NCBI GenBank assembly: GCA_013154005.1
Contig: JAADDK010000016.1
Coordinates: forward strand, 1-38,302
DNA from: Methanobacteriota archaeon
GTDB taxonomy: Archaea; Thermoplasmatota; Thermoplasmata; Thermoplasmatales; Aciduliprofundaceae
DNA length: 38,302 nucleotides
Reading direction: 5' to 3'
Each line of letters begins with the position of its first letter. Position 1 is the stretch's first letter. The notes beneath the pieces are model-generated. The model was not told where the DNA came from and searched no databases. It saw nothing but the letters and a program-made list of their open reading frames with translations. The position numbers and the translations under genes were made by a program. Of this stretch, positions 3,855 through 35,780 are shown piece after piece.

Positions 3855-4469
3855 ATGTTGTGGATCATTGGATTATTAGTTGCATTCATGGGTACCGGGC
3901 TTGTGTTTATAGCAACGTGGAAAAATTACAGCGGTGAGCAGAAAAACTGGGCGATTATATTCGGCATTCTCGGAGCTCCGGGAGCCATGTACACTTTGAT
4001 TACCGCCATGCTCGTGTACAAAATGGCACCGTCATTGCTCGATTACATTGTCATACCTCTGGGTTTAACTGCCGGGCTTGTAAATGCTGGCAGAGCATAC
4101 GCCAGCGGAGAGTTCATGCAAAAAATTTCTAAAAATAGTCAGCTACGGGCAGTAACCCTTGTTAAAACCATAATGTTTGAGCCATTTATGATATACGCAT
4201 ATATGATTGCCATACTAATCACCCAGCTACCAAGCGAAGGCGTGCATATCCCGCTGAGCCATATTAGCTATGCTATGTGGATCGTATCCATCGCAGGCAT
4301 GGCGGGAGGTCTCATACTCGGATTCTCCGCAAATAGATACGAGAAAGAAACGGACATAGAAGATTCAAAAAACATACGTGGGTTCATAATTAAAGCCCTG
4401 CCGGCTCACATAATCGGCGCATTGGGAGTGATTCTGGCAATAATATTCCTGATGCCATACATGCAATAA
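3855..4469 (+). CDS. Six-helix membrane protein of unknown function
   Basis: I do not recognise a family with confidence; DUF981-type archaeal membrane proteins are a possibility. The 204 residues contain about six hydrophobic segments (roughly 1-22, 34-56, 64-82, 106-126, 137-160, 182-203) and short polar loops. A charged loop (RYEKETDIEDSKN) precedes the last helix. Expression appears leaderless from a TATA box 25 nt upstream. It is convergent with the SPFH operon, its stop lying 10 nt from that operon's last stop, so it is probably a separate unit. No catalytic or metal-binding residues stand out. Confidence 0.75.
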   Translation: MLWIIGLLVAFMGTGLVFIATWKNYSGEQKNWAIIFGILGAPGAMYTLITAMLVYKMAPSLLDYIVIPLGLTAGLVNAGRAYASGEFMQKISKNSQLRAVTLVKTIMFEPFMIYAYMIAILITQLPSEGVHIPLSHISYAMWIVSIAGMAGGLILGFSANRYEKETDIEDSKNIRGFIIKALPAHIIGALGVILAIIFLMPYMQ

Positions 4470-4479
4470 AAGAAAAAAA

Positions 4480-5658
4480 TTATTTGAGTTTGTGGCCGCA
4501 GTACGGGCAGAACGCCACGTCCGGAGGAATCTCCTTGCCGCAGTTGGGACAGTGCATTTTCGCCGGCTCTTGCTTTGCACCGCAGTACGGACAGAACATG
4601 GCATCTTCCGGAATATCGCGTCCGCAGCTCACACATTTTTTCATCTTCTTTTCCACAAATTTATGGCCACAGTACGGGCAGAACTGCGCATCTCCGGGCA
4701 CCATCTTTCCGCACTCCGGACACTTCTTCATGGCAGCCTGCGGTCCCGGCGGCGGTGCCTGCTGCACCCCCTGAGCGGGCTGCATGCTCTGGCCCATGGC
4801 GTTGGCCATGGAGAGCCCGGCACCCATGCCGGCACCAAGCTCGGCCATACCTCCTCCGCTGCCACCCTGTGCCGCACCTTTGCCTATATCCTCTATCGCC
4901 TTGCCGGTCTGATACTGCATGTAATTTACACCCAGTGCAGCCATCGCACCGCGCTTATCAATTGCCTGCTGCACCTCTTCCGGCAAATTGAGATTCAATC
5001 CGGCAATTTTTGTAACTTCCAGTCCGTAGCGGGCGGTATCATCTTTCAACTTTGTAAGCAAAACCTGCTCAATTTCCTGCAAATACGCGGGCAGGTCAAG
5101 AATACTCATATTATGCTTCAGTTTCAGCTCGCCCACCGTGTCGTTCAGGTCCATCACAATCTGGTCCTTGAGCCACTCAATAACTTCCTCGCTCTTCGAA
5201 TATCCTTTTGTGCCCACAAACTCGGTGATGAACACCATGGGCTCGGTGACCTTGTATGCAAACTGTCCAAACGCACGTATGCGCACCACTCCAAAATCCG
5301 GGTCTCGAAAACTCAGAGGCTCCGAGGTTCCAAACTTACCCCGCAGCTCCCGGCGCTGCAGATAGTAAATCTCACCAATCTGCTGCACGCCTGTAACTTT
5401 CTTTACTATGGTGCCCAGAACCGGAACGTTCTCCGTGGTGAGCGCATATCTGCCGGGTCGGTCAAACACGTGCAGCGCCTTACCATCTCTGAAAAACACC
5501 GCCACCTCATCTTCCCGAACCACCACATTATCGTTCCAGCGAATATTGTGCGGCAGACGCCACATCACATTCTCTCCCTTGTACTGGTCCACCCAGAAAA
5601 AGGTTTTCCGGGCATCTGCACCTTCTAAATTGCTCGTCTTTTCACGTTTCAAAATCAT
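4480..5658 (-). CDS. SPFH/flotillin-type protein with three C-terminal zinc ribbons (YdjI-like)
   Basis: Residues ~30-235 look like an SPFH (band 7) domain of the virion-core/YdjI kind: an early GENVMWRLPHNIRWNDNVVV, a strand-rich body, and the helix ending EEVQQAIDKRGAMAALG. A Gly/Met/Ala-rich linker (~260-310) leads to three treble-cysteine pairs: C313/C316 with C327/C330, C342/C345 with C356/C359, and C370/C373 with C384/C387. Each second knuckle reads FCPYCG. There is no transmembrane helix, so partners must recruit it to the membrane. In Bacillus, YdjI is recruited by the zinc-ribbon membrane proteins YdjG/YdjH; here three zinc-ribbon genes sit upstream in the same operon. Its start overlaps the preceding stop by four bases. 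Confidence 0.85.
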   Translation of the reverse strand: MILKREKTSNLEGADARKTFFWVDQYKGENVMWRLPHNIRWNDNVVVREDEVAVFFRDGKALHVFDRPGRYALTTENVPVLGTIVKKVTGVQQIGEIYYLQRRELRGKFGTSEPLSFRDPDFGVVRIRAFGQFAYKVTEPMVFITEFVGTKGYSKSEEVIEWLKDQIVMDLNDTVGELKLKHNMSILDLPAYLQEIEQVLLTKLKDDTARYGLEVTKIAGLNLNLPEEVQQAIDKRGAMAALGVNYMQYQTGKAIEDIGKGAAQGGSGGGMAELGAGMGAGLSMANAMGQSMQPAQGVQQAPPPGPQAAMKKCPECGKMVPGDAQFCPYCGHKFVEKKMKKCVSCGRDIPEDAMFCPYCGAKQEPAKMHCPNCGKEIPPDVAFCPYCGHKLK

Positions 5659-6176
5659 CTAAACACCCCCAGCATCTTATTTCTTCTGGTTCTAAACAGA
5701 GAGTTGAAATCCTTCATCATACCTAAATACTGCTTCATCATTCTGTGCAGCTCGTGAATATTCTCCTCCTCAGCCATTTTAACTGCATAATCCCTCAGCG
5801 CCTGCACCTCCTCTATGAGCTTAACATCAAACTCGTAGAGGCGATTAAGCTGGTCGGTATCCACCCTGTAATCGCTCACCAATCCCATGTAGCCCTGCTC
5901 GGCATGCCGCACCGACTCTTTAAGGGCAACCATATTGTTAATTAACCTTCCAATCAAGCTCATCTCGTCCAGCGCCATGTTCCGGCTTAAATTCTCACGC
6001 ACCTCTTTGAGATTCTCGTGCGCATCATCTAAAATTCGGGCTATGTAATCTCTGAGCAGACTGTCCGCTATGCGCAAATCTTCTCTTTTTCTGTACCCTC
6101 TAAATCCGGGTATGGCCAGCTCGATTTTCTTCAGCAACGTTCTCTCTCTCTCCACTTTATCTCGCATATCGTTCAT
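5655..6176 (-). CDS. Helical coiled-coil protein of the zinc-ribbon/SPFH operon
   Basis: The 173 residues are almost all charged amphipathic helix with no membrane segment or cysteine pair. A distinctive early motif, IPGFRGYRKREDLRIADSLL (residues ~23-42), resembles a motif I recall from bacterial proteins encoded beside SPFH/YdjI genes, but I cannot name the family. Its length and helix content are reminiscent of PspA-type membrane-stress proteins, though similarity to PspA itself is not evident. The start overlaps the upstream membrane-protein stop by four bases and its own stop overlaps the SPFH start, so translation is probably coupled and the products may form a complex. Confidence 0.75.
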   Translation of the reverse strand: MNDMRDKVERERTLLKKIELAIPGFRGYRKREDLRIADSLLRDYIARILDDAHENLKEVRENLSRNMALDEMSLIGRLINNMVALKESVRHAEQGYMGLVSDYRVDTDQLNRLYEFDVKLIEEVQALRDYAVKMAEEENIHELHRMMKQYLGMMKDFNSLFRTRRNKMLGVFR

Positions 6177-6496
6177 TTTTTCTCACCTCTCAACCCATGC
6201 ACAAGCACCACCGCGCCGATAATTATCACGACGAGCACCGCCGTTAGCACGGCATTAAGTCCTGCAAGTATCGCGTAAAGCAATATGCCAATGAGCAAAA
6301 ATCCAATACCTCCATAAAACCGGACCGGTTCTTTTCCAGACAGCACCAGCAACGTAATACCCACGCCGCCAAAAAGAACAAATGATGCATAGGCCCAGAA
6401 ACCTTCGTAAGCAAGAGCCGCCGCTATGCCAATGAGTACGATAGCGATGCCCCACGCCATATAGAATATTCTATCTCCATCTTCCATCTTTATCAC
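6173..6496 (-). CDS. Small four-helix membrane protein of the zinc-ribbon/SPFH operon
   Basis: This 107-residue protein has about four hydrophobic segments (roughly 12-30, 35-52, 58-77 and 80-100) and a lysine-rich C-terminal tail (RGEKK), so both ends are likely cytoplasmic. No family is recognised. It overlaps its neighbours by four bases on each side, so it is likely made in step with them. It could be the membrane platform for the soluble helical protein and the SPFH protein encoded next. Confidence 0.75.
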   Translation of the reverse strand: MIKMEDGDRIFYMAWGIAIVLIGIAAALAYEGFWAYASFVLFGGVGITLLVLSGKEPVRFYGGIGFLLIGILLYAILAGLNAVLTAVLVVIIIGAVVLVHGLRGEKK

Positions 6497-7074
6497 CCCG
6501 TATATTTTCTGAATGCGGGCACATAGTAGCCTCTGTAATTCATGGGCATGTACACCAGCTCTCTGAAACTCGCCTCAAACGAGTAATCAATGCGCTGAAG
6601 CGTGCCACGCATCTCCACCTCGTACGAGAGAAACAGAAACTCTGCCAGTTTCTCACCTTCTTCAATCGTGATACCCACTGGCAGAGCGCTCACTCCCCGG
6701 AAACTGTCAATCTCATGAGGCCTGTCTGGCGGGTTCGATGTGAGCAACTTTCCGATTCGTACAATCTCCTCCGCCGGAAGCTCGGCCCATGCGGGTATGT
6801 ACGAGAGCCATTCACCGCTCTTTCCATGCTGTGCCAGCAGCCCTTTCACCTCCTCCCTGTATATCTGCACCTTTGTGAGATATGTGAAAAACGGCATATA
6901 AGCTTTATCTTTACTGTCCACCTCAAAATCGTATATCTTTCCAGGAATGGTTGCTCCGGTGGGCGCATATATAAACTCACCGCAGTTTTCGCATCGGAAT
7001 ACCATATCCTTTCCCGAGCCCTTGACCACTGAGCCGCATTTGGGACATTTGAGCGGCACGAGTTTTATGCCCAT
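6493..7074 (-). CDS. Soluble zinc-ribbon protein, paralogue of the two membrane-anchored ones upstream
   Basis: The 193-residue product begins with a zinc ribbon (C10/C13 and C28/C31: CPKCG and CENCG). It continues with a mixed domain containing YMPFFTYLTKVQIYR, which matches YLPFWRY and YFPVYRF in the two larger upstream proteins. There is no C-terminal membrane pair, so it is a shortened soluble relative. A conserved end, YMPMNYRGYYVPAFRKY, repeats the aromatic-proline theme. The first ten bases overlap the preceding gene's end. Function is unknown; zinc ribbons here could bind protein partners rather than nucleic acid. Confidence 0.78.
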   Translation of the reverse strand: MGIKLVPLKCPKCGSVVKGSGKDMVFRCENCGEFIYAPTGATIPGKIYDFEVDSKDKAYMPFFTYLTKVQIYREEVKGLLAQHGKSGEWLSYIPAWAELPAEEIVRIGKLLTSNPPDRPHEIDSFRGVSALPVGITIEEGEKLAEFLFLSYEVEMRGTLQRIDYSFEASFRELVYMPMNYRGYYVPAFRKYTG

Positions 7075-8033
7075 TTTAGCACCCCCTTCAAATAGGGTAT
7101 ATCCACACCTTTATAGGGCTTCTCTATGTCTCCCTCTACAATCTCAGAGCCATGACGGAAAAACGAATACGCGCCCAGAAATATAATGCCTCCTATAATG
7201 AGCAGAAACAGCCCCGCTCGCGCATCTACGTACTGCATTGCAGGCAGAGCCAGCCCCACAAGCACGCCGCCCACAGTCGAACCCGTCGCAATGGCGAGCC
7301 CCTGCCACACCGAGTCTCCGGGCGCACGGCCAGAGAGAACCTGCCCGGTCACACCGTCCACCGTGAGGAAATACATCTTATCTTTATACTCGTACCGAAT
7401 AATCCAAACCGGATAATAGAGAAGCACAAAATGCCTGGGCACCACGAAAGTCTTTGAGAAGGTGATGTTCTGAATCTGCGCTTCTTTCACAATGCGCTTG
7501 GATATTTCCTGAACACCCATATCCACCGCATCGTCCTTCGAGGTGGTGACTTCGAACGTCGGGGCGTCTTCAGGCAGAGGAACAACCTCACCACGATAGT
7601 TACGAAGATGCATTATACCTATATCTCCCGCATCGCAGGCAATGTGTGACCAGTCGTAATCTTTCATTATCTCCTTTTCTTTGTACACCTTCTCGGTATT
7701 GCCCCGGGAATCGGTACGATAGTTATAGCCACACACCACGCCGAGCCCCTTCGCAGTGTAGCGCCAGAAAGGTAGATACACGTGGTAAATTTCCTTTATC
7801 TTTCCCACTTCTTTCAAATCCCTCGCTTTGAACCCGTGCTTGAACCATTTATGCGCCGCCTCCAGCGCCTTCTTCTCGTCCACCACAAGGGCGTAGGCAA
7901 GCGTTTTCACGTCATCTTCTCCTTCAATCTTCGAGACAGTATGGCAGAACGGGCATATGGCAAGATGGTCTCCTTCCTCCACATCGATTCTGCCTCCGCA
8001 GCTGGGACAGCTTAACCCAAACGTGAGTTTCAT
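7065..8033 (-). CDS. Membrane-anchored zinc-ribbon protein (322 aa)
   Basis: An N-terminal zinc ribbon (C9/C12 and C27/C30) is followed by a large domain with two aromatic-proline motifs, YLPFWRY and YYPVWIIRYEY. The second runs into MYFLTVDGVTGQVLSG, which looks like a PepSY-type strand pair. Two transmembrane helices (~244-266 and ~275-294) lie near the end, followed by a ~28-residue tail, so ribbon and tail should be on the same, probably cytoplasmic, side. The layout recalls Bacillus YdjG. The gene starts 9 nt after the upstream stop, with GGTGGTATT near the start as ribosome binding site. Confidence 0.8.
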   Translation of the reverse strand: MKLTFGLSCPSCGGRIDVEEGDHLAICPFCHTVSKIEGEDDVKTLAYALVVDEKKALEAAHKWFKHGFKARDLKEVGKIKEIYHVYLPFWRYTAKGLGVVCGYNYRTDSRGNTEKVYKEKEIMKDYDWSHIACDAGDIGIMHLRNYRGEVVPLPEDAPTFEVTTSKDDAVDMGVQEISKRIVKEAQIQNITFSKTFVVPRHFVLLYYPVWIIRYEYKDKMYFLTVDGVTGQVLSGRAPGDSVWQGLAIATGSTVGGVLVGLALPAMQYVDARAGLFLLIIGGIIFLGAYSFFRHGSEIVEGDIEKPYKGVDIPYLKGVLKWA

Positions 8034-8042
8034 AATACCACC

Positions 8043-8783
8043 TCAGAATTTTTTCGCAATGAAATAACCTCCTATTCCTCCAACCAGAAAGCCCGCGAGC
8101 ACCAGAAACCAGAGCACACCGGATATCATCACTCCACCGGCGGCGCCCGCCATGGCAAGCACAAACGCAATAACCGCTAAAAGCAGGTACGGTGCGGAAG
8201 AGCGTGTGGGATAATACGATGAAAACACCTCTCCCGACGAGCCGTCAATAAGTACGTTGTACTCCTGTCCGTTGAACACGTACCGAATTTCGTACAGTGG
8301 AAAATACACAATCTCCTGCTCTTTCGCCTCACCAGGAAGGTTGCCAAGATACGCGTCCATGGAGGTATCTGGTTGAATGACCTCCGCGTCCCCGGTATCG
8401 TATTTGTCGTCAAAGATTCGCATATCCCCCGGCGGAATTTTGAGATTACTCATTCCCGGAAGCAACGTGGTCTTTGCGGGCTTAATCACATCTTCTTCCC
8501 GGCCATTTATGCGGCGCACAAACCGATACACGGGGAAATACATCTTCTTTATCGATTTGATTTGCGCGGCATCGAGCCCCTTCGCCTTCGTGGAGCCGGC
8601 GGCCCAGCGCCTGAACACTTCCGTGGCCTGCTGAGAATTGAGCGAGAAAGGAATGATGTAATAGAACATCACACGGCTCTTATCTATGTAAATCATTGTG
8701 CCGCAGTAATCGCATTTTTTGAATCGCATTCCCGGCTCGTACTCAAAAGGTGCCCCACATTTCGGACAGTTCATCGTAACCAT
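8043..8783 (-). CDS. Membrane-anchored zinc-ribbon protein (246 aa), first gene of the operon
   Basis: The protein has an N-terminal zinc ribbon (C6/C9, C24/C27), a middle domain with YFPVYRF and later YFPLYEIRYVFNGQEY followed by LIDGSSGEVFS, and a C-terminal hairpin of two transmembrane helices (~197-243). It is an evident paralogue of the next two genes. GGTGGG lies 8 nt before ATG 8783; a second ATG three codons on is possible. A TATA box at 8811-8823 makes this the promoter-proximal gene of the six-gene set. Orientation predicts a cytoplasmic sensor or adaptor anchored by its C-terminus. Confidence 0.8.
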   Translation of the reverse strand: MVTMNCPKCGAPFEYEPGMRFKKCDYCGTMIYIDKSRVMFYYIIPFSLNSQQATEVFRRWAAGSTKAKGLDAAQIKSIKKMYFPVYRFVRRINGREEDVIKPAKTTLLPGMSNLKIPPGDMRIFDDKYDTGDAEVIQPDTSMDAYLGNLPGEAKEQEIVYFPLYEIRYVFNGQEYNVLIDGSSGEVFSSYYPTRSSAPYLLLAVIAFVLAMAGAAGGVMISGVLWFLVLAGFLVGGIGGYFIAKKF

Positions 8784-8810: not shown

Positions 8811-8823
8811 TATTATTTAATGA
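8811..8823 (-). promoter_or_regulatory. TATA box of the six-gene zinc-ribbon/SPFH operon
   Basis: On the minus strand TCATTAAATAATA lies 28-40 nt before ATG 8783, followed by a short leader with GGTGGG. No other clear promoter is seen inside the tightly packed operon. Confidence 0.55.
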
Positions 8824-8837
8824 TTTCTGGAATTGTC

Positions 8838-9095
8838 TTATCCGAATTTCAGCTTAGCCACCAGCACCAGGGCCGCGAGAATCACCGTCACCACGTTAGC
8901 AATTATTATCGGCCAGTCCATTAGCGCTATGCCGTACACGAGCCAGAGCAAAACGCCGAGTGTGAACAATAGAAACATACCCAGCGATACGTCTTTCGTG
9001 CTCTTCGTCTTCCACGCTTTGATTACCTGCGGTAGAAAGGATATCGTGGTGAGCGTGCCTGCTGCGAATCCGAGAATTTGAATTGCATAACTCAT
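8838..9095 (-). CDS. SemiSWEET (MtN3/PQ-loop) sugar transporter
   Basis: This 85-residue, three-helix protein carries the PQ motif in FLPQVIKAWKTKST, followed by the conserved second helix with FTLGVLLWLVYG and the Asn-bearing third helix IIIANVVTVILAAL. SemiSWEETs work as homodimers and move small sugars by facilitated transport. The size is exactly that of the family. A TATA-like ATATTATTAATA lies about 25-35 nt upstream with no ribosome binding site, suggesting a leaderless message. Substrate cannot be read from the sequence. Confidence 0.9.
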   Translation of the reverse strand: MSYAIQILGFAAGTLTTISFLPQVIKAWKTKSTKDVSLGMFLLFTLGVLLWLVYGIALMDWPIIIANVVTVILAALVLVAKLKFG

Positions 9096-21630: not shown

Positions 21631-24600
21631 ATGACCGAGATGCTAAGGCTCCCATTTATTGGAGAGGAGCGATCAAGAATACTTCTAAAAAAAGGATATG
21701 ATTTGGAAAGAATCCGAAATTCCACTCCAGAGGAGATTTCGGAAATTCTCGGGGTATCTAAATACATAGCATTTTTAATTATAAAAGCAGCCAGAGAGAG
21801 CAACCCTGAAAACGTGCCAGATGAGCTTATTGCCGAAGAGACCCTGTGCCCGGGGTGTGGAGCAATAGTCACCGAACTGGAATATGAATGTGGATCATGT
21901 GGATATGTACTCAAAGACATAAACCCAGTGGAGTACCAAACGTATATGAGCAGATACGTAGAGCTATTTATTGAGATATCAAAAGACCCTGAAAATATAA
22001 AACTGTGGGAAGATTTGAAAAAAATTCTCGAAGCACTTGGCAACATAGAAGAGGCACTGGATGTATCCAGCAAAATTGATTACATAAAATCAGGAATAGT
22101 TCTCTCCACAAAATCAGACATGGAGGAGAAGAAGCTCCCAATTAAAGAGAGCGCTCCAAAAAAGCCAAAATTCAAAAATGGTCTCGTAAATGGGTTTGGA
22201 GTCCAGTTAATAACTGTAGAAAAACGGGTTAGAGCAAGAAGATATCTTGCCATCCTGATTGTACTGGGTATAGTAGCGGGCACATTGATAGGGCTGTACT
22301 TCATGAACTCTCCATTCAAAATAGATGGAAATTTTGATGACTGGAACAGCATACCGGGATACCACACATTCGACTCTCAAATAAAAATTTTCAAAATGGG
22401 CGAATACGGCAACAATTACTATTTCTATATAGCCGGAGACCTGTCCCTTAAACTGGGTGTATCCATATTTGTGGATTCCGATGGAAATCCTGACTCGGGA
22501 TACTGGATGGGAAGTATAGGGGCCGATTATCGACTCCTCATTCACAATATCGGAAACAAACTTCAGGGAACAATCTATTCTTTTGAAGGAAATAATCCTA
22601 CAAACTGGGCATTATGGAAAAATTCAGGTGGCTTTAAAGTGGCCGGATATCACTATGGTATAGAAATGCAGGTTCCCAAAAACATATTTACCAGAAATGC
22701 CGTGGTTATGCTGGTAGACGGCGAGCATAGAGGATACCCCATAGGTCTATTTCACCCTGTTGTGCTCGCAGAGATGGAACTGGGTGGGGGTGTGGTAAAA
22801 AACGGGACTTCAGTAGGCACACTCTACCTCAACAATACATTCAAATCACCCACAAAAATAACCTCAATATCCGTGGACAATATGGGTAATGCCAGCTCAC
22901 TTCATCTTCGGGCAATCATAGACGGAAAAGACATACCTATAAAAGATGGAAAAATACTGCTAAACTCCTCATTAATTCTGGATAAAACGAAGGTGATCCG
23001 CATTGAATATCTTGAGGGAGGCACCTCCGGGTCCACCATACGACTTTCAGTAAAAAATCTGACGGGCGTAAACTCATTTAAATTTGTGACTGGCGATGGA
23101 TATTATGTGAAAAAAGCACCTTCTGCACCAAGAATAGATGGCGTTTTTTACGACTGGGCCCCGTATCGACACAGTGCCCCAGTAAACGATTTGCCGCCCA
23201 ATGTGGACATAGTATCTTACGCCAAATATATGGCAAACAACAACTCATATTTCTATCTTCAAACCAAAGGAGAGATAGCTTCCGGAACAATCATCCCTGT
23301 GTATGGGACTACTGTAAAAGATAGTGATAGAGACACCATACCCGATAACCTTGACCCGTACCCGCACGATTTTAATAACGATGGCATACCCGATGACAAA
23401 AGTTATGTGGTAATTAACGGCACCCGGTACCCGGATGTGGACGGCGATGGCATCCCTGACTATCCACAGGGACCGGATATGTGGCTTAACACAACAATAC
23501 CCAACACCACTGCATTTCCACTGCAGTATCGGGGAAAATTCGTAAGTGTGTATATAGGACCACCAAAAGCGCCTAAACCTGAATATCCGTATGATTACAT
23601 TGAAATATACATAAGCGGCAATAATGGGTATCCCATTGGAGGCATCTATGCTCAGTATCTGTTCCGACTCTACGGACTCTCTGGCACCATCAAAGGATAC
23701 AACTTTTTGGAATACCGAAACGGTAAATTTGTAAACAAAACTCTTAGTTTCGATTTGCATACCAATATTGCCGAAGGCTGGAAACAGCTGGAGATGAAGC
23801 TTCCAATATCAATCACCGGCAGAAACGTGGTTTACAGAATTGTAAGCTATGAAAAACTATGGCAGGATACCGCGCATTTGCCATTTCAAAAATCAAATAA
23901 TATTCCCATGCCCATTCCACATACAAACAAAACCAAGCCCCAAAACTCAACAGAATACATGGCCCCAGGAAAAGACGATTTTGAAGCAGGTGCATACGGA
24001 GAATGGCTAAAACAGAAATTCGGAAATGAAGTGCGGCTCAACACGCTGACCTCTTGGATCTCATCCCTCAATCTTTCAGAGGGAGCAGAGAAAAATCATG
24101 TGTTCACCGCCAGTGATTTCATTGACGGAAACGTATCTCATTTCAAAGAGGAAAAATATGCAGCAAATAAACTCAGAGAACTGAAAAAAGAGGCACCTGA
24201 TAAACCAGTATATAGAGTGCAGTTGCTCAACGAATCAATTTTCAGAGAAGAATGGCAGAATTTAACCATCAAGACAAAAGAATGGGAGATTCTTCACTAT
24301 ACCCATGACCTTGAGAGATACCGGCTCAAGGAATTTGGTTATTTCAGGCCATACAAACCGAACTGGTACGATGCAGATGAGATAAGAACGATAGAGTGGC
24401 TTGTATATAAATTATCTGAAAATCTCTCAGATTGGCATACTGCTTTTGCGGTGGCAAAAGGTATAAAGAGTTTGGACGATGCCCGGCTCGGGCCACTTTA
24501 CATGCCTCATGCACCGAGTACTGAGCTGGGTGCGGGCACGCATGCTGTTACTGTTCATGTGGTAGATTATTACTCAGGAGAATCAGATTGCAACGGAGAA

Positions 24601-25920
24601 AACGATATATATTACTATGTGTGGATAGGCAATGAGGTATTTGAGTCCCCGGAGAGAGATGACCAGAATTCCTGGTCGGGTGATGATGCGTACACAAACT
24701 ATTCCGTGACCGGGGACACCGTTCAGATAGGAATCCATGTTTATGAAGCTGATTCTGGGTTATGCGGCAGTGATGACGATTACGGATACGTTACTTTCAC
24801 ATATAATCTTACCACAAAATTATGGTCTGGTGGAACATCCGCTCCGTATGCATACACAGATGGGCCGGATGGCTGGTGCGATGTATGGTTCCATGTGCAG
24901 AGTGATTCGGATAACAATCCCTCAACCATAAATTATGGTACAGTGGGAGCAGGAACATATGGCTACATCATCCAGGCATACAATGGCAAATCAAATTACA
25001 ACGACCCTTCAGATAACTGGACCTTTTCAATTGATTCAACACTGATCTCAACACATGCCGTTATATATGTGGGAATGGCACCCAACTCCGGCGCAAATTT
25101 CAATATCGCACTTTATGATCCCAATGGCAATGAAAAAGCATCCAGTGCAAGTGCAGGGACGGGTGGCGTGGAAAGAATATTTTACCAGCTTCAACTGGGA
25201 GATACCGCCGGAACATGGACCGCAACAGTATCCATAAATTCAACTGCGGATTACGGAGATTATTATATTTTCCTGTGGTGTGGATATAAGGTAGAATTTT
25301 ACGCTTATACAGACAATGCCGGTCCACATACCCCCATGCACAGCAACAATGGGGTTAACGTCTCCTATGTGGTGGAAGGAGTAACCCATTATGTATGGCC
25401 AAATGATGATTATTACTGGACCGTGTACGTTGACCGCGGCTCATCATACTCCTATGCTGCAGAATCCAATCTCTCCAACGATGCGGGAGGACACAGATGG
25501 ATTTCCCAGACTCCACCCTCAGGGACAATCTCTGCATCCACCACCATCACCGGGCACTACTATGAGCAGTTCTATCTAACCATTAACACCACCTACGATA
25601 CTGGCTACTCATCGGGGCAGCTTTTCGGCGCTGCTAAAAACTATTCGGCACCTGGTTCAGGCTGGTACGATGCGGGCTGTAAGGTAACTATAAAGGTGGA
25701 CTCCCCGGTATCCGACAGTAGCGGTAAAGAATTTGCGTTCACATCATGGACCGGCTCGGGCACGGGCAGTTATTCGGGCACTGCAAATCCAGCTAACTTT
25801 ACAATTCAGGACGTTACCACCGAAACCGCGAACTGGGAGCAGGTTCCAGAGTTCTCAGGGCTCGTATGGGTCGCTCCTGCTCTGGCTCTGCTGTTCATAA
25901 CACGCCGGCGTAGAAAATAA
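21631..25920 (+). CDS. Giant bitopic surface protein: HhH and zinc-ribbon head, membrane helix, ~1200-residue exodomain, PEF-CTERM-like tail
   Basis: Residues ~4-55 form a helix-hairpin-helix-like unit (LPFIGEERSRILLKKGYDLE); C73/C76 and C87/C90 form a zinc ribbon; a lysine-rich stretch leads to one membrane helix at ~204-224. Outside follow two related beta units beginning IDGNFDDW (231) and IDGVFYDW (~502), aspartate-rich calcium repeats (DSDRDTIPDNLDPYP, ~562, and DVDGDGIPDYP), a helical section (~780-960), and C-terminal repeat domains ending TSWTGSGTGSYSG. The last residues, VPEFSGLVWVAPALALLF plus RRRRK, look like an archaeosortase PEF-CTERM signal. Many N-glycosylation sequons (NxS/T) are present. 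A cytoplasmic DNA-type head on an exoprotein is odd. Ligand unknown. Confidence 0.8.
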   Translation: MTEMLRLPFIGEERSRILLKKGYDLERIRNSTPEEISEILGVSKYIAFLIIKAARESNPENVPDELIAEETLCPGCGAIVTELEYECGSCGYVLKDINPVEYQTYMSRYVELFIEISKDPENIKLWEDLKKILEALGNIEEALDVSSKIDYIKSGIVLSTKSDMEEKKLPIKESAPKKPKFKNGLVNGFGVQLITVEKRVRARRYLAILIVLGIVAGTLIGLYFMNSPFKIDGNFDDWNSIPGYHTFDSQIKIFKMGEYGNNYYFYIAGDLSLKLGVSIFVDSDGNPDSGYWMGSIGADYRLLIHNIGNKLQGTIYSFEGNNPTNWALWKNSGGFKVAGYHYGIEMQVPKNIFTRNAVVMLVDGEHRGYPIGLFHPVVLAEMELGGGVVKNGTSVGTLYLNNTFKSPTKITSISVDNMGNASSLHLRAIIDGKDIPIKDGKILLNSSLILDKTKVIRIEYLEGGTSGSTIRLSVKNLTGVNSFKFVTGDGYYVKKAPSAPRIDGVFYDWAPYRHSAPVNDLPPNVDIVSYAKYMANNNSYFYLQTKGEIASGTIIPVYGTTVKDSDRDTIPDNLDPYPHDFNNDGIPDDKSYVVINGTRYPDVDGDGIPDYPQGPDMWLNTTIPNTTAFPLQYRGKFVSVYIGPPKAPKPEYPYDYIEIYISGNNGYPIGGIYAQYLFRLYGLSGTIKGYNFLEYRNGKFVNKTLSFDLHTNIAEGWKQLEMKLPISITGRNVVYRIVSYEKLWQDTAHLPFQKSNNIPMPIPHTNKTKPQNSTEYMAPGKDDFEAGAYGEWLKQKFGNEVRLNTLTSWISSLNLSEGAEKNHVFTASDFIDGNVSHFKEEKYAANKLRELKKEAPDKPVYRVQLLNESIFREEWQNLTIKTKEWEILHYTHDLERYRLKEFGYFRPYKPNWYDADEIRTIEWLVYKLSENLSDWHTAFAVAKGIKSLDDARLGPLYMPHAPSTELGAGTHAVTVHVVDYYSGESDCNGENDIYYYVWIGNEVFESPERDDQNSWSGDDAYTNYSVTGDTVQIGIHVYEADSGLCGSDDDYGYVTFTYNLTTKLWSGGTSAPYAYTDGPDGWCDVWFHVQSDSDNNPSTINYGTVGAGTYGYIIQAYNGKSNYNDPSDNWTFSIDSTLISTHAVIYVGMAPNSGANFNIALYDPNGNEKASSASAGTGGVERIFYQLQLGDTAGTWTATVSINSTADYGDYYIFLWCGYKVEFYAYTDNAGPHTPMHSNNGVNVSYVVEGVTHYVWPNDDYYWTVYVDRGSSYSYAAESNLSNDAGGHRWISQTPPSGTISASTTITGHYYEQFYLTINTTYDTGYSSGQLFGAAKNYSAPGSGWYDAGCKVTIKVDSPVSDSSGKEFAFTSWTGSGTGSYSGTANPANFTIQDVTTETANWEQVPEFSGLVWVAPALALLFITRRRRK

Positions 25921-31046: not shown

Positions 31047-34000
31047 ATGAAAATAATAAAAAAGGAGGGTGGAAGAATACCGTTTGCGTATGTGTTTGCC
31101 ATAATATTTGTGCTTATGCTTTTACTGGCGGGCATATACGCAAGTATACTGGGCAGACATAATATAATAAGCATAGATAAATTCTATAAGGAATCGGACC
31201 AGGACCTTAGAAACATAAATGATATGGTAAGAGAGAAAGCGTACCACAGTCTGATGGAAATCATACATAATATAACGAAACAGAGAGATCCCAAGTTGTA
31301 TATGATTCAAAAATATTTAGAACAAAACATGTCAAATTACATAAATGCCACATTTCCTATAATAACCCAGGATTACGTCGTGAAAGTTGATAATTATACT
31401 GTAAAAGTGGTTATGGATTACAAAAAAACAAAAGCTTTTATAAAAGATTTTAAACTAAAATGGATAGACTATACTTACGGACTGGACAATCTTCAGGAGG
31501 GATATAAAAAGCAAACTCAGTTACCCGTATACCCATATGTGGTGGGATACTTCAATTACACATTTAAGGATAGACGTAGCGGATTCGTAATGAAAAGATT
31601 AATGAAGTTCAATCGTATCGTATATTCCCCACTTCCACTTTTAAAATTCGAATTTGATGAATTCAGAACCTCCACCACCAACGCGGGAGACTTTGGGAGA
31701 CTTATCAAATATATTCTTACAACGATAACCGAATACCGCATACTTATAGGCGATGCTGCGGGGCAATATGGTGGATATAACGTTTCGGTTACCCAGGTAT
31801 TAACAAAAGCAGATGTGGAAAAGGCAGTGAATCTTGCCCTGCTCTTAGAAAGTGTACGTTATTTTGGAACGTATGATAAGAACACCGCAGCTAAAATGGG
31901 TATCGGCACGATTATCGACCAGTATCTTAAAAAGGGAACCATTGACGCTGCGGATATCTATTTCCTCTGGAACCATATGAATTCATACGTATGGGCAAAT
32001 CGCATACTGGGTCAGAGCATATACAGCTATGCAGATAGATTCGTTTACGAATTACTACGAGAATTCTGGACAAACAATGATCTGTACGCAGACCCAACGC
32101 TTAAAGAACCTCTGCTTAACTGGGAAAAAATAAAACAGAAAGGTGACGACTGGATTAAGGATATGCTGGCCAAGTATCTGGACGTGTGGCGAGGCTGGCT
32201 TCAAATACCTAAAATAATTATACCTCACTACGCAAAAGTAGACATCACTGAGAAATTTGACATAGTAATCATACTGCCCAAACCCCCATACATCATATAT
32301 GAACCAGACCAGACAGTTACATTGCACTGGGTAATATGGAACATGCCTGTGGAAAATACCGTGGACCTGATACTCGGACCCAAACCTAAAAACTTCGAAC
32401 TTTATGCCCTGGGAACCTCCACAGATCCGCCATATGTACATATCGGCCATTATCAATATCAGCTAGTAAAGCAATCATTTATAGAAGAGCATCAGCATTA
32501 CAAAGGAGGCAGTGATCCATATCTTAGTACGTTGGAGTATGTGATGGATGCACTTACCAGGTCTATGAAAAAGAGGTCAAATACATGGGATAATACCTCC
32601 CAGAAAGGATTCATAGATTTTGCGGCCTATGATGCTTCCATGTTAAGTTATATCGATAACCGCAATATAAACCTGGCCGGAAATCCAAAAGACGAAAATA
32701 CAATATTAATAAACGGCACCCAGGAAATAGTTAACGGGCCGCTGACCCAGGCGTCAAATACATTTTCAAAATGGATATATCCGCTGAAAGAAACATGGTG
32801 GAAGTATGGTGCATATAGAGAAAATTCGACAGGAGATAACGATGCATATCTTTATTACCTTACAAAAGACACCGTCGATCTGTGGTATCAGGCAATGAAA
32901 AATCTATATGACGGCGGAGATCCCTCACATACAGACGATGCAGGACCTTATGACTCAGACTGTAATCATTATCCATCTCATCATCAGGTCAGCACATGGC
33001 CCACACCGTACTCCGGCTATCCATTCTATGGAGTGGGAAACCACAACGGCTCATTTAATTTTCATAGAGATCTTACCCGTGATGCGTACAACGATATAAG
33101 AGAGCTTATGTGGGAAAAAGCCATTGAAAAAGGACTCGAAAAAGGAGGTGTGGGAATTCCCATATACAGCCACGAAAACGTATGGAACGATGTCAAACAG
33201 AAAACGGAAGATGCAAGACAGAAAGTGGTGGGTCAAGATGGACTTATAAAAAATCTGAATTTCTGGTTCTGGCCATACGTATATTTCAACAAGGCATATT
33301 TCATAGTAAAACAATTTGGAGATTTACGAACGTTTATGGATTACATAACTGACAATGGATCATACAAATCAAAGAGCGATTCAGATTTATCTAATTTCTA
33401 TAAGTTTGTAAGGTGGCGTGTAGGATTACCAATCTTGGGAATAGCTGGATTACCACCCGTAAACCCGGGAAACAGCAGTGGAGGCGGTGGAGGAAATAAT
33501 ACCACCCATGTTACCGGACTGGGGCTGGACGTATCGCATTATCAGGGAACAATAGACTGGACAAAGGTACGCAACGCAGGATACACCTTTGTATTTGTAA
33601 AGGCAAGTCAGGGTACAAGTTATGTGGATCCTCTGTTCTCCACCAATGTCCAGGGTGCGAGTGCGGCAGGACTGAAAGTGGGAGCATATCACTTTGCAGA
33701 ACCAAGTGATGACCCAATTGCAGAAGCTGACCATTTTGTAGATGTGATTAAACCTTACCTTAGTTACATGTCACTGCCACCGGCACTGGATCTGGAGCAA
33801 ACAGGAGGTTTGAGCTGGAGCGCACTAAGCAATTGGGCGAATGAATTCGAGAAAGAAGTGCAGGCTAAAACAGGAATTACGCCGATAATTTACGTTAATG
33901 TGAATTATGCCACAAACTTAGATTCATCAGTCACACAGTGGCCACTATGGATTGCAGACTGGACATACAATCCAAATGCCACACCCAGAACAGGAAAATG

Positions 34001-35780
34001 GAGCTCATGGAGCTTTTGGCAGTACAGTGATAGCGGATCAGTACCAGGAATTGCAGGAAGCAGTGTTGATCTGGACAAGGCATCAGGCAGAACTTTAGAG
34101 ATGCTGTACAGTATAAGAGCGGGATCATCCTACTCCGTAAATGGACTTCTGGGAGAACTAGCAAAATGGATTCCAAACTCATATCAGGTTATGGAAAAGA
34201 ACATAATTCTCAACGCAAGATACAGTTCCATTCCAATATTCCCCTCTGTCCACTCCAATCGCCACATATTCTGGGACACCACTCATTTCCAGGACGCAAA
34301 CATGCATAGGACAAAGAACGAAACCGTGTGGGTGGATTTCCAGCCAGATTACCTTGAAGCGGGAAAGAATCTCAATATAGGCATATCTCTCGGACCCGGC
34401 CACAAGTTTGTAGATGTGCAGGATACAGATTATGATATGAGCGAAGCACCGTACGAGTATCAGTACACAGTAACCATATCCGGCACACTGAATCTGAATC
34501 TTCACACAGATCGCACATCTCTGGTATATGGAGGGATACACTGGCTCACGTGGTACAACGGCACAGTGCCAATTAACCTGAACATTAAAGTGCCCATTTA
34601 TTCGGCATGGTTCCTGGAGTCACACTGGAACAGTTGCACCGCGGCGGATAACTGGGCATTTCACACAGATGTCCCATTCAGTTACACTCGCGGCTACTTC
34701 AATATGCTTGGCAAAGATTCACCAACCAAGCCGTTCTTCATAAGCCAGCCACTCAATACATTTATATACGACTACGAGAAGATTGGCGAGGTGTGGAACA
34801 GATATGCGACATTCACCAACTTCGCGCTGATCAACATAAAAGACGAGCTTGCTGCATGGAATTACACCTATCACAGAATAATCACCAACGCGACCAAAGA
34901 GGTAGCCACCGGGATAAATGCCGCATCATCGGGCTTCAGCACTGCCCAGAATGACCTCAACAACGTATTTGCAAAGGCTAACGGGTACACAAATCAGCTA
35001 CACTTTTTCTACTTCTCACGTGATTTCACGGTGACAAGTTCACAGGTACAGGAAAACAACGGATACCGACAGTTCAACGTGAATTTAGGCAGCAAAACGG
35101 TGCAGGAAAAGTATCAGGAAGGCAAATATTCGGTGCAGGGTCAGCTTTCAGGAAGCGGTGTGAATTTACAGATGAGCAATTACTACGACTACATGCATAT
35201 CAGCTTGAGTATAAAAACAGGGTCAATTACCCCGTATTTCCTATCGTACCACAATATAAGCGGAGGCAGGTCAGTGCGAATGTATGTAGAACGTTTAGAT
35301 AATGTGCTTAAAACCGACTTTGGACTTGTAGGAGATAGCAGTGCAATCAACAACCTTGCAAAGTATTTTCCAAAAAATATCACATATCTAACTCAGGAAT
35401 CATTGATAAAAGTATTCCATCAGATTCTGAAAGATATATACGTAAACGAGACCATTAGCTACAGATTTGGAATATTTGTAAATCTGATAGGCGGAAATCA
35501 GCGCCTTACTTATATTATATGGTACAATGGAACACCCACTCCAGACTCGTTTATTATCTGGCTCAACAACGAAATAAGACCCATTGTCTACGAGCTGGGA
35601 ATATCAGAGTTCCCACAGTACAGTTATGATTTACTGACACTGAATAACATATATTACTCAGTAAACAATCTGTGGATGGACACAGACTACGACTCTTCAT
35701 CGATATTTGGATACGCAACACAGGGTCACGCACGTGCAGCGTGGGACGGATACGTGATAGAAATGTCCTATCATCTCTGA
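31047..35780 (+). CDS. Giant pilin-like surface protein with an internal GH25 muramidase domain
   Basis: The 1577-residue protein begins MKIIKKEGGRIPFAYVFAII and a membrane helix (~12-33), like the large haloarchaeal proteins starting RGRVPFA (DUF7286-like) found in pilin-type operons. Residues ~34-800 and ~1015-1577 are exodomains I do not recognise, with many NxS/T sequons. In between, after a Gly/Asn/Thr linker (~805-823), lies a full GH25 lysozyme domain (~824-1010): GLDVSHYQG with D828, GAYHFAEP, the catalytic pair D915/E917 in ALDLEQ, WIADW, and FWQYSDSGSVPGI. GH25 cleaves bacterial peptidoglycan between MurNAc and GlcNAc. Archaea lack murein, so the target should be bacteria. The domain looks intact. 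Confidence 0.87.
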   Translation: MKIIKKEGGRIPFAYVFAIIFVLMLLLAGIYASILGRHNIISIDKFYKESDQDLRNINDMVREKAYHSLMEIIHNITKQRDPKLYMIQKYLEQNMSNYINATFPIITQDYVVKVDNYTVKVVMDYKKTKAFIKDFKLKWIDYTYGLDNLQEGYKKQTQLPVYPYVVGYFNYTFKDRRSGFVMKRLMKFNRIVYSPLPLLKFEFDEFRTSTTNAGDFGRLIKYILTTITEYRILIGDAAGQYGGYNVSVTQVLTKADVEKAVNLALLLESVRYFGTYDKNTAAKMGIGTIIDQYLKKGTIDAADIYFLWNHMNSYVWANRILGQSIYSYADRFVYELLREFWTNNDLYADPTLKEPLLNWEKIKQKGDDWIKDMLAKYLDVWRGWLQIPKIIIPHYAKVDITEKFDIVIILPKPPYIIYEPDQTVTLHWVIWNMPVENTVDLILGPKPKNFELYALGTSTDPPYVHIGHYQYQLVKQSFIEEHQHYKGGSDPYLSTLEYVMDALTRSMKKRSNTWDNTSQKGFIDFAAYDASMLSYIDNRNINLAGNPKDENTILINGTQEIVNGPLTQASNTFSKWIYPLKETWWKYGAYRENSTGDNDAYLYYLTKDTVDLWYQAMKNLYDGGDPSHTDDAGPYDSDCNHYPSHHQVSTWPTPYSGYPFYGVGNHNGSFNFHRDLTRDAYNDIRELMWEKAIEKGLEKGGVGIPIYSHENVWNDVKQKTEDARQKVVGQDGLIKNLNFWFWPYVYFNKAYFIVKQFGDLRTFMDYITDNGSYKSKSDSDLSNFYKFVRWRVGLPILGIAGLPPVNPGNSSGGGGGNNTTHVTGLGLDVSHYQGTIDWTKVRNAGYTFVFVKASQGTSYVDPLFSTNVQGASAAGLKVGAYHFAEPSDDPIAEADHFVDVIKPYLSYMSLPPALDLEQTGGLSWSALSNWANEFEKEVQAKTGITPIIYVNVNYATNLDSSVTQWPLWIADWTYNPNATPRTGKWSSWSFWQYSDSGSVPGIAGSSVDLDKASGRTLEMLYSIRAGSSYSVNGLLGELAKWIPNSYQVMEKNIILNARYSSIPIFPSVHSNRHIFWDTTHFQDANMHRTKNETVWVDFQPDYLEAGKNLNIGISLGPGHKFVDVQDTDYDMSEAPYEYQYTVTISGTLNLNLHTDRTSLVYGGIHWLTWYNGTVPINLNIKVPIYSAWFLESHWNSCTAADNWAFHTDVPFSYTRGYFNMLGKDSPTKPFFISQPLNTFIYDYEKIGEVWNRYATFTNFALINIKDELAAWNYTYHRIITNATKEVATGINAASSGFSTAQNDLNNVFAKANGYTNQLHFFYFSRDFTVTSSQVQENNGYRQFNVNLGSKTVQEKYQEGKYSVQGQLSGSGVNLQMSNYYDYMHISLSIKTGSITPYFLSYHNISGGRSVRMYVERLDNVLKTDFGLVGDSSAINNLAKYFPKNITYLTQESLIKVFHQILKDIYVNETISYRFGIFVNLIGGNQRLTYIIWYNGTPTPDSFIIWLNNEIRPIVYELGISEFPQYSYDLLTLNNIYYSVNNLWMDTDYDSSSIFGYATQGHARAAWDGYVIEMSYHL
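33466..34080 (+). other. GH25 lysozyme domain with its Gly-rich linker (within 31047-35780)
   Basis: The linker GNSSGGGGGNNTTHVTG is followed by the GH25 barrel. All active-site regions of the family are present: the first-strand Asp, the DxE pair, and the WQY and late VDLD segments. Reading frame and base composition are continuous with the flanking archaeal parts, so if acquired by transfer it has since adapted. Confidence 0.88.

Follow-up and report, generated by a model that had tools for sequence, protein, structure and literature searches.

What a compact archaeal operon of zinc-ribbon, membrane and SPFH proteins does, and whether it is the counterpart of the pspA-ydjGHI system of Bacillus subtilis, is the question raised by this locus. 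An earlier reading of the letters alone (the sequence-only reading) proposed such a counterpart, with another helical protein in place of PspA and perhaps the sensing of membrane damage at low pH. PspA/ESCRT-III proteins are thought to be as old as the last universal ancestor; PspA is nevertheless missing from most Thermoplasmata. Our main reading, to which we give a probability of about 0.5, is that the operon would encode one membrane-bound SPFH scaffold complex, with the helical protein E as its partner, protecting or organising the membrane.

Operon layout and gene products

The window, i.e., the whole 38,302-nt stretch analysed, comes from a 1.6 Mb genome (135 contigs, 94% complete) whose nearest named relatives in the genome collection are 'DHVE2 group archaeon' bins, Thermoplasmatota akin to Aciduliprofundum. 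The features of the operon are as follows.

8813 to 8820, minus strand: TATA-like element TTAAATAA, 29 nt upstream of the gene A start codon
8043 to 8783, minus strand: gene A, 246 aa; zinc ribbon (CPKC/CDYC) at the N-terminus, then a YpeB/PepSY-like region, with hydrophobic membrane segments at the C-terminus
7065 to 8033, minus strand: gene B, 322 aa; zinc ribbon followed by a beta-rich region of YpeB/PepSY-like type, with two membrane helices at the C-terminus
6493 to 7074, minus strand: gene C, 193 aa; zinc ribbon and A/B-type domain without a membrane helix, a soluble paralogue
6173 to 6496, minus strand: gene D, 107 aa, GTG start; small four-helix membrane protein
5655 to 6176, minus strand: gene E, 173 aa; soluble helical bundle, distant relative of the NCBIfam LIMLP_15305 family
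6051 to 6110, minus strand: E motif 1, residues 23-42, PGFRGYRKREDLRIADSLLR; near-invariant (n = 63 sequences)
5883 to 5906, minus strand: E motif 2, residues 91-98, HAEQGYMG; six residues conserved across 63 sequences
4480 to 5658, minus strand: gene F, 392 aa; SPFH/Band_7_1 protein, no TM segment
4498 to 4722, minus strand: three zinc ribbons at the C-terminus of F (residues 313-387); three CxxC pairs, Pfam DZR/Zn_Ribbon_1 in three stretches

All six reading frames are co-directional, and their coordinates reproduce exactly the tight layout first described, with a 9-nt gap between A and B followed by four overlaps (B/C 10 nt; C/D, D/E and E/F 4 nt each). The single promoter proposed at the same time is supported by the TATA-like element upstream of A, which is retained in 7 of 7 aligned species (as the variant TTATATAA in one of them) within divergent surroundings. 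A SemiSWEET gene (8838-9095) lies on the same strand 54 nt upstream of the operon; therefore read-through from this gene, and with it a longer transcript starting further upstream, is possible. On the other side, F converges with a plus-strand gene 10 nt away (3855-4469), whose 204-aa hydrophobic product weakly resembles a model of V-type ATP synthase subunit K (E-value 1.2e-4) and has no Pfam match.

A, B and C each begin with a CxxC...CxxC zinc ribbon. Hydrophobic segments are present at the C-terminal ends of A and B, D is nearly all hydrophobic, and none was found in C, nor any TM-like segment in E and F. This fits the earlier description of three zinc-ribbon proteins, two of them membrane-anchored, and profile comparison confirms that they are paralogues: A can be aligned with B along almost all of its length (hhalign 99.9%, E-value 1.7e-31), B and C align over 172 columns (hhalign 97.7%, E-value 2.4e-12; C profile built from an alignment of 23), and the similarity of A to C is confined to the ribbon. 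The PepSY/YPEB Pfam matches of A and B are weak and below the cut-off. The AlphaFold model of B (mean pLDDT 90) has no PDB match at E-value <=0.001.

The almost entirely hydrophobic 107-aa product of D is in line with the four-helix membrane protein that had been described. A small 4TM reading frame like D directly precedes E in 40 of 77 loci, compared with a background in which 3% of same-size reading frames are equally hydrophobic, as judged by crude hydropathy rather than a TM predictor. F, likewise, is the SPFH protein with three zinc ribbons that was expected, given its match to PF13421 (SPFH/Band_7_1; E-value 1e-44) and its three C-terminal CxxC pairs. The C-terminal module of these SPFH proteins varies by lineage, being HTH_17 in Comamonas, GYF_2 in Paracoccus and zinc ribbons in archaea. 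Because GYF_2 or HTH stands in place of the zinc ribbon in bacterial SPFH proteins, the tail of the F family looks like an interchangeable docking module. Relatives with a swapped module lie at L151:4953-6053 and L152:4953-6101.

Conservation of the gene neighbourhood

A search for E recovered it from 215 of 300 Thermoplasmata genomes; among 197 genomes of the phylum to which Methanomicrobium belongs, 14 carry it. A neighbourhood comparison, in which the proposed operon could have fallen apart, instead found its genes conserved together. Among 80 species or genomes from Thermoplasmatota and methanogen lineages, 72 loci had enough sequence to be tested, and F lies directly downstream of E in 71 of them, mostly with an overlap or a gap of <50 nt. 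The sole exception (L125) reflects an over-extended ORF start, F being present and overlapping. The A-B-C-D-E-F order was found in all six related DHVE2 loci. Elsewhere the arrangement varies: Methanocorpusculum and Methanomicrobium carry A-B-C-[D]-E-F, Methanoperedens, ANME-2 and some Methanomassiliicoccales carry E-F-A-B-C, and many other Thermoplasmata carry E-F plus one divergent A/B-like protein, or none.

Control genes flanking the operon (HMG-CoA synthase, ChsH2, SWEET, NUDIX, S19e and others) are largely confined to DHVE2; outside this group, an FKBP-like gene (14191) turned up in 7 loci and a thiolase in 4, and there was a single further match. As the flanking genes are, with these few exceptions, unconserved outside DHVE2, the linkage of the operon is not general synteny. 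The distance matrices of E and F are correlated (r = 0.77, with 0 of 500 permutations as high), which shows, with species relatedness not controlled, that the two appear to be inherited jointly. Complete genomes from sister genera (g3 and g5 in family f1) lack the system, and the operon is therefore dispensable.

Helical protein E and the comparison with known systems

Each of the 63 E sequences is a distant match to NCBIfam NF047596 (LIMLP_15305, Leptospira) over most of its length (best E-value 5.6e-18). The E protein of the window scores 45.4 bits (E-value 8e-12), far under the curated equivalog cut-off of 210 bits; E is therefore a distant homologue rather than a member or equivalog of this family. 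We found no functional data for LIMLP_15305, and the one paper that names the Leptospira genes assigns them no function. The operon offers a first genomic context for a helical family that NCBIfam named only from Leptospira.

In the model of E (mean pLDDT 88), a four-helix bundle comes after an N-terminal helix. The invariant residues fall in two loops, one leading into helix 2 (PGFxGYRxREDLR) and the other into bundle helix 4 (HAEQGYSG); in the latter, H91, A92, E93, G95, Y96 and G98 are each at least 90% conserved (n = 63 sequences). Since loops in these two positions share one end of an antiparallel bundle, they may be read as one binding surface. In a Foldseek search the E model, like that of B, matched no known fold in the PDB at E-value <=0.001, and neither PspA nor ESCRT-III was among its top 50 matches. 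The hhalign probability against an archaeal PspA profile of only three sequences was 2.3%, and PF04012 (PspA/IM30) was not among the Pfam families reported for E proteins. Pfam, hhalign and the fold search together rule out E as a relative of PspA or ESCRT-III, and a helical partner other than PspA, as originally suggested, is what the operon contains.

Several Thermoplasmata have an N-terminal zinc ribbon fused to E. A ribbon-like extension occurs at L141, L142, L147, L148 and L054; it was read directly in L054, one motif was counted in L141, and the others have a weak match to the F profile. Second, more divergent E-like copies occur elsewhere in genomes G024, G033, G039, G344 and G374, and the one in G024, at least, is nearer to the LIMLP_15305 profile than the main copy is. 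Bacterial plasmids gave no more than marginal matches to E, from Sinorhizobium (E-value about 0.1), and these lie outside motif 1.

F and A/B are homologous to a bacterial plasmid pair (HMM E-values 1e-15 to 1e-57) in which, in Paracoccus, Vibrio and Comamonas (L151-L153), an SPFH gene adjoins a gene for a TFIIB-type zinc-ribbon protein that combines the A/B domain with a hydrophobic segment at its C-terminus; A itself matches such 2xZnR membrane proteins at 1e-16 to 1e-20. The bacterial pair differs in that its zinc-ribbon protein has two ribbons, its SPFH tail is GYF_2 or HTH, and its loci contain no C, D or E.

The combination of an SPFH protein with a zinc-ribbon/YpeB-like/TM protein is described for B. 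subtilis YdjI/YdjG in passages of PMC11237479. YdjI is soluble and needs YdjG and YdjH to form membrane foci, and PspA foci in turn require YdjI (PMC8581546). The archaeal operon resembles this system in its PF13421-type SPFH protein without a TM segment of its own and with a C-terminal zinc ribbon (F and YdjI), in what is probably a comparable zinc-ribbon, YpeB-like and TM partner (A/B, compared with YdjG by published architecture), and in having a gene for a soluble helical partner within the operon. In contrast to the B. subtilis system, its helical partner is unrelated to PspA by profile and fold, it has no TPM protein (YdjH), its zinc-ribbon paralogues number three instead of one, and it has the additional 4TM protein D.

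The absences extend to whole genomes. PspA (PF04012) is above cut-off in only 2 of 300 Thermoplasmata genomes and was found neither in the source genome nor among the 41 closest genomes (controls positive in 9 of 14), and the TPM domain of YdjH (PF04536) was found in 0 of 41 close-relative genomes including the source (controls positive in 8 of 14). With PspA and YdjH both looked for and neither found, the operon is not a member of the PspA-YdjGHI system. The proposed archaeal counterpart of YdjGHI therefore stands as regards the homologous SPFH and zinc-ribbon proteins and falls as regards YdjH; plausibly, the operon works like YdjGHI-PspA without being a member.

Among 16 E-bearing genomes checked outside the close relatives of the window, PspA coexists with the E system in five: Methanoperedens (L076), its close relative (L079), two Methanosarcinales/ANME-2 (L080, L082) and one Methanomicrobiales (L089). 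For this reason E is not simply a substitute for PspA. The idea of E in the place of PspA agrees with the near absence of PspA from Thermoplasmata, although its strict form, in which E replaces PspA, is weakened by this coexistence; E sits where PspA would be in the operon but does not strictly stand in for it. The suggested role at low pH fares less well. The same operon occurs in rumen and gut Methanocorpusculum/Methanomicrobium and in Methanoperedens/ANME-2, lineages that live near neutral pH, so such a role is unsupported, and on this distribution we reject a low-pH specialisation.

Possible roles of the operon

How might these products act together? By analogy with YdjG/YdjH-YdjI-PspA, F, which has no membrane segment of its own, would oligomerise beneath the cytoplasmic membrane, held there by the zinc-ribbon/YpeB-like, membrane-anchored A and B and the four-helix D, while C would be a soluble regulator or competitor of A/B. 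F would recruit E, probably via the invariant PGFxGYRxREDLR/HAEQGYSG surface of E, and under envelope stress the complex would protect the membrane or organise it, E taking the place that PspA has in bacteria. We infer the physical complex, its recruitment to the membrane, E as effector and the stress function from this comparison. In its favour are the E-F adjacency, the conserved gene orders, the correlated E and F distances, the D-like gene before E, the presence of membrane segments in A, B and D but not in E and F, the zinc ribbon fused to some E proteins, the bacterial plasmid pair, the published dependence of YdjI on YdjG/YdjH and of PspA on YdjI, and the scarcity of PspA in Thermoplasmata where E is common. 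Weighing against it, besides the lack of a TPM protein, the coexistence of PspA with E in 5 of 16 genomes and the dispensability of the system, are that the fold of E has no solved relative suggesting membrane activity and that the bacterial SPFH/zinc-ribbon pairs are found without E.

The same proteins might instead serve membrane-protein quality control, with F building a cage of the HflK/C or prohibitin kind, and E and the zinc-ribbon proteins acting as adaptors that hand substrates to a protease or chaperone whose gene lies elsewhere. Domains of the YpeB/PepSY type are associated with the control of proteases, and the weak Pfam matches in the operon are of this type; zinc ribbons often serve as protein-interaction modules. 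SPFH cages regulate FtsH, according to passages of PMC12048511. We consider this unlikely, as F lacks the N-terminal membrane helix of HflK/C and no recurring protease or AAA+ gene was recognised in neighbourhoods searched systematically with the A-F profiles. Membrane remodelling or vesicle formation with the archaeal ESCRT machinery, the SPFH and zinc-ribbon proteins sorting cargo and E acting as adaptor, appears improbable to us. Passages of PMC10936438 report that Thermoplasmata keep a minimal ESCRT and that Methanobacteriales 'Meth_adaptin' ESCRT loci include an SPFH protein bearing a coiled coil and a zinc ribbon, that is, an archaeal SPFH and zinc ribbon in a membrane-associated operon. 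By the same passages, these loci differ from ours in containing Vps4, ESCRT-III and adaptin-appendage proteins and not A-E, and E has no similarity to ESCRT-III or PspA.

A transcriptional or metal-responsive regulator, whose zinc ribbons would contact DNA or detect metal at the membrane while the remaining proteins transduce the signal, is very unlikely. The zinc ribbon of YdjG is annotated as a DNA-binding type in a passage of PMC9239133, and the Comamonas SPFH protein ends in an HTH; the swapping of zinc ribbon, GYF_2 and HTH at the C-terminus among relatives of F nevertheless fits a protein-docking tail better, and we noticed no metal-transport gene beside the operon. We give hardly any credence to an antiviral defence module at the membrane, even though the PSP literature overlaps phage response and the Vibrio plasmid pair lies near a TIR-domain gene: no PADLOC model matched any of the six proteins at E-value <=0.001, which sets the operon apart from known defence systems, no E relative was found on viral contigs, and presence in most Thermoplasmata (215/300) is unlike the patchy occurrence of typical defence genes. 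The Vibrio plasmid locus (L153:1044-1913) also has a gene with a TRAFs-binding domain near the pair.

Returning to the scaffold complex with E as its partner, we tentatively propose that it may constitute a previously undescribed archaeal membrane-protection system, an SPFH/zinc-ribbon scaffold with a non-ESCRT-III helical effector, widespread in PspA-less Thermoplasmatota. The passages available from PMC9239133 and PMC11237479 (Psp), PMC10936438 (ESCRT) and PMC2636767 (SPFH) contain no description of the E-F pair, and subscription journals may differ. If the operon does the job of PspA by means of an unrelated helical protein, then of the two components it is the SPFH/zinc-ribbon scaffold that would be older or more general, with PspA only one possible effector.

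Two large plus-strand genes elsewhere in the window deserve mention. The 1429-aa product of one (21631-25920), with no Pfam match at 1e-5, is possibly a surface protein. The product of the other (31047-35780), 1577 aa long, contains at residues 828-1002 a lysozyme-type domain of glycosyl hydrolase family 25 (Pfam E-value 2e-50), which is unusual for an archaeon; transfer of GH25 to Aciduliprofundum has reportedly occurred.
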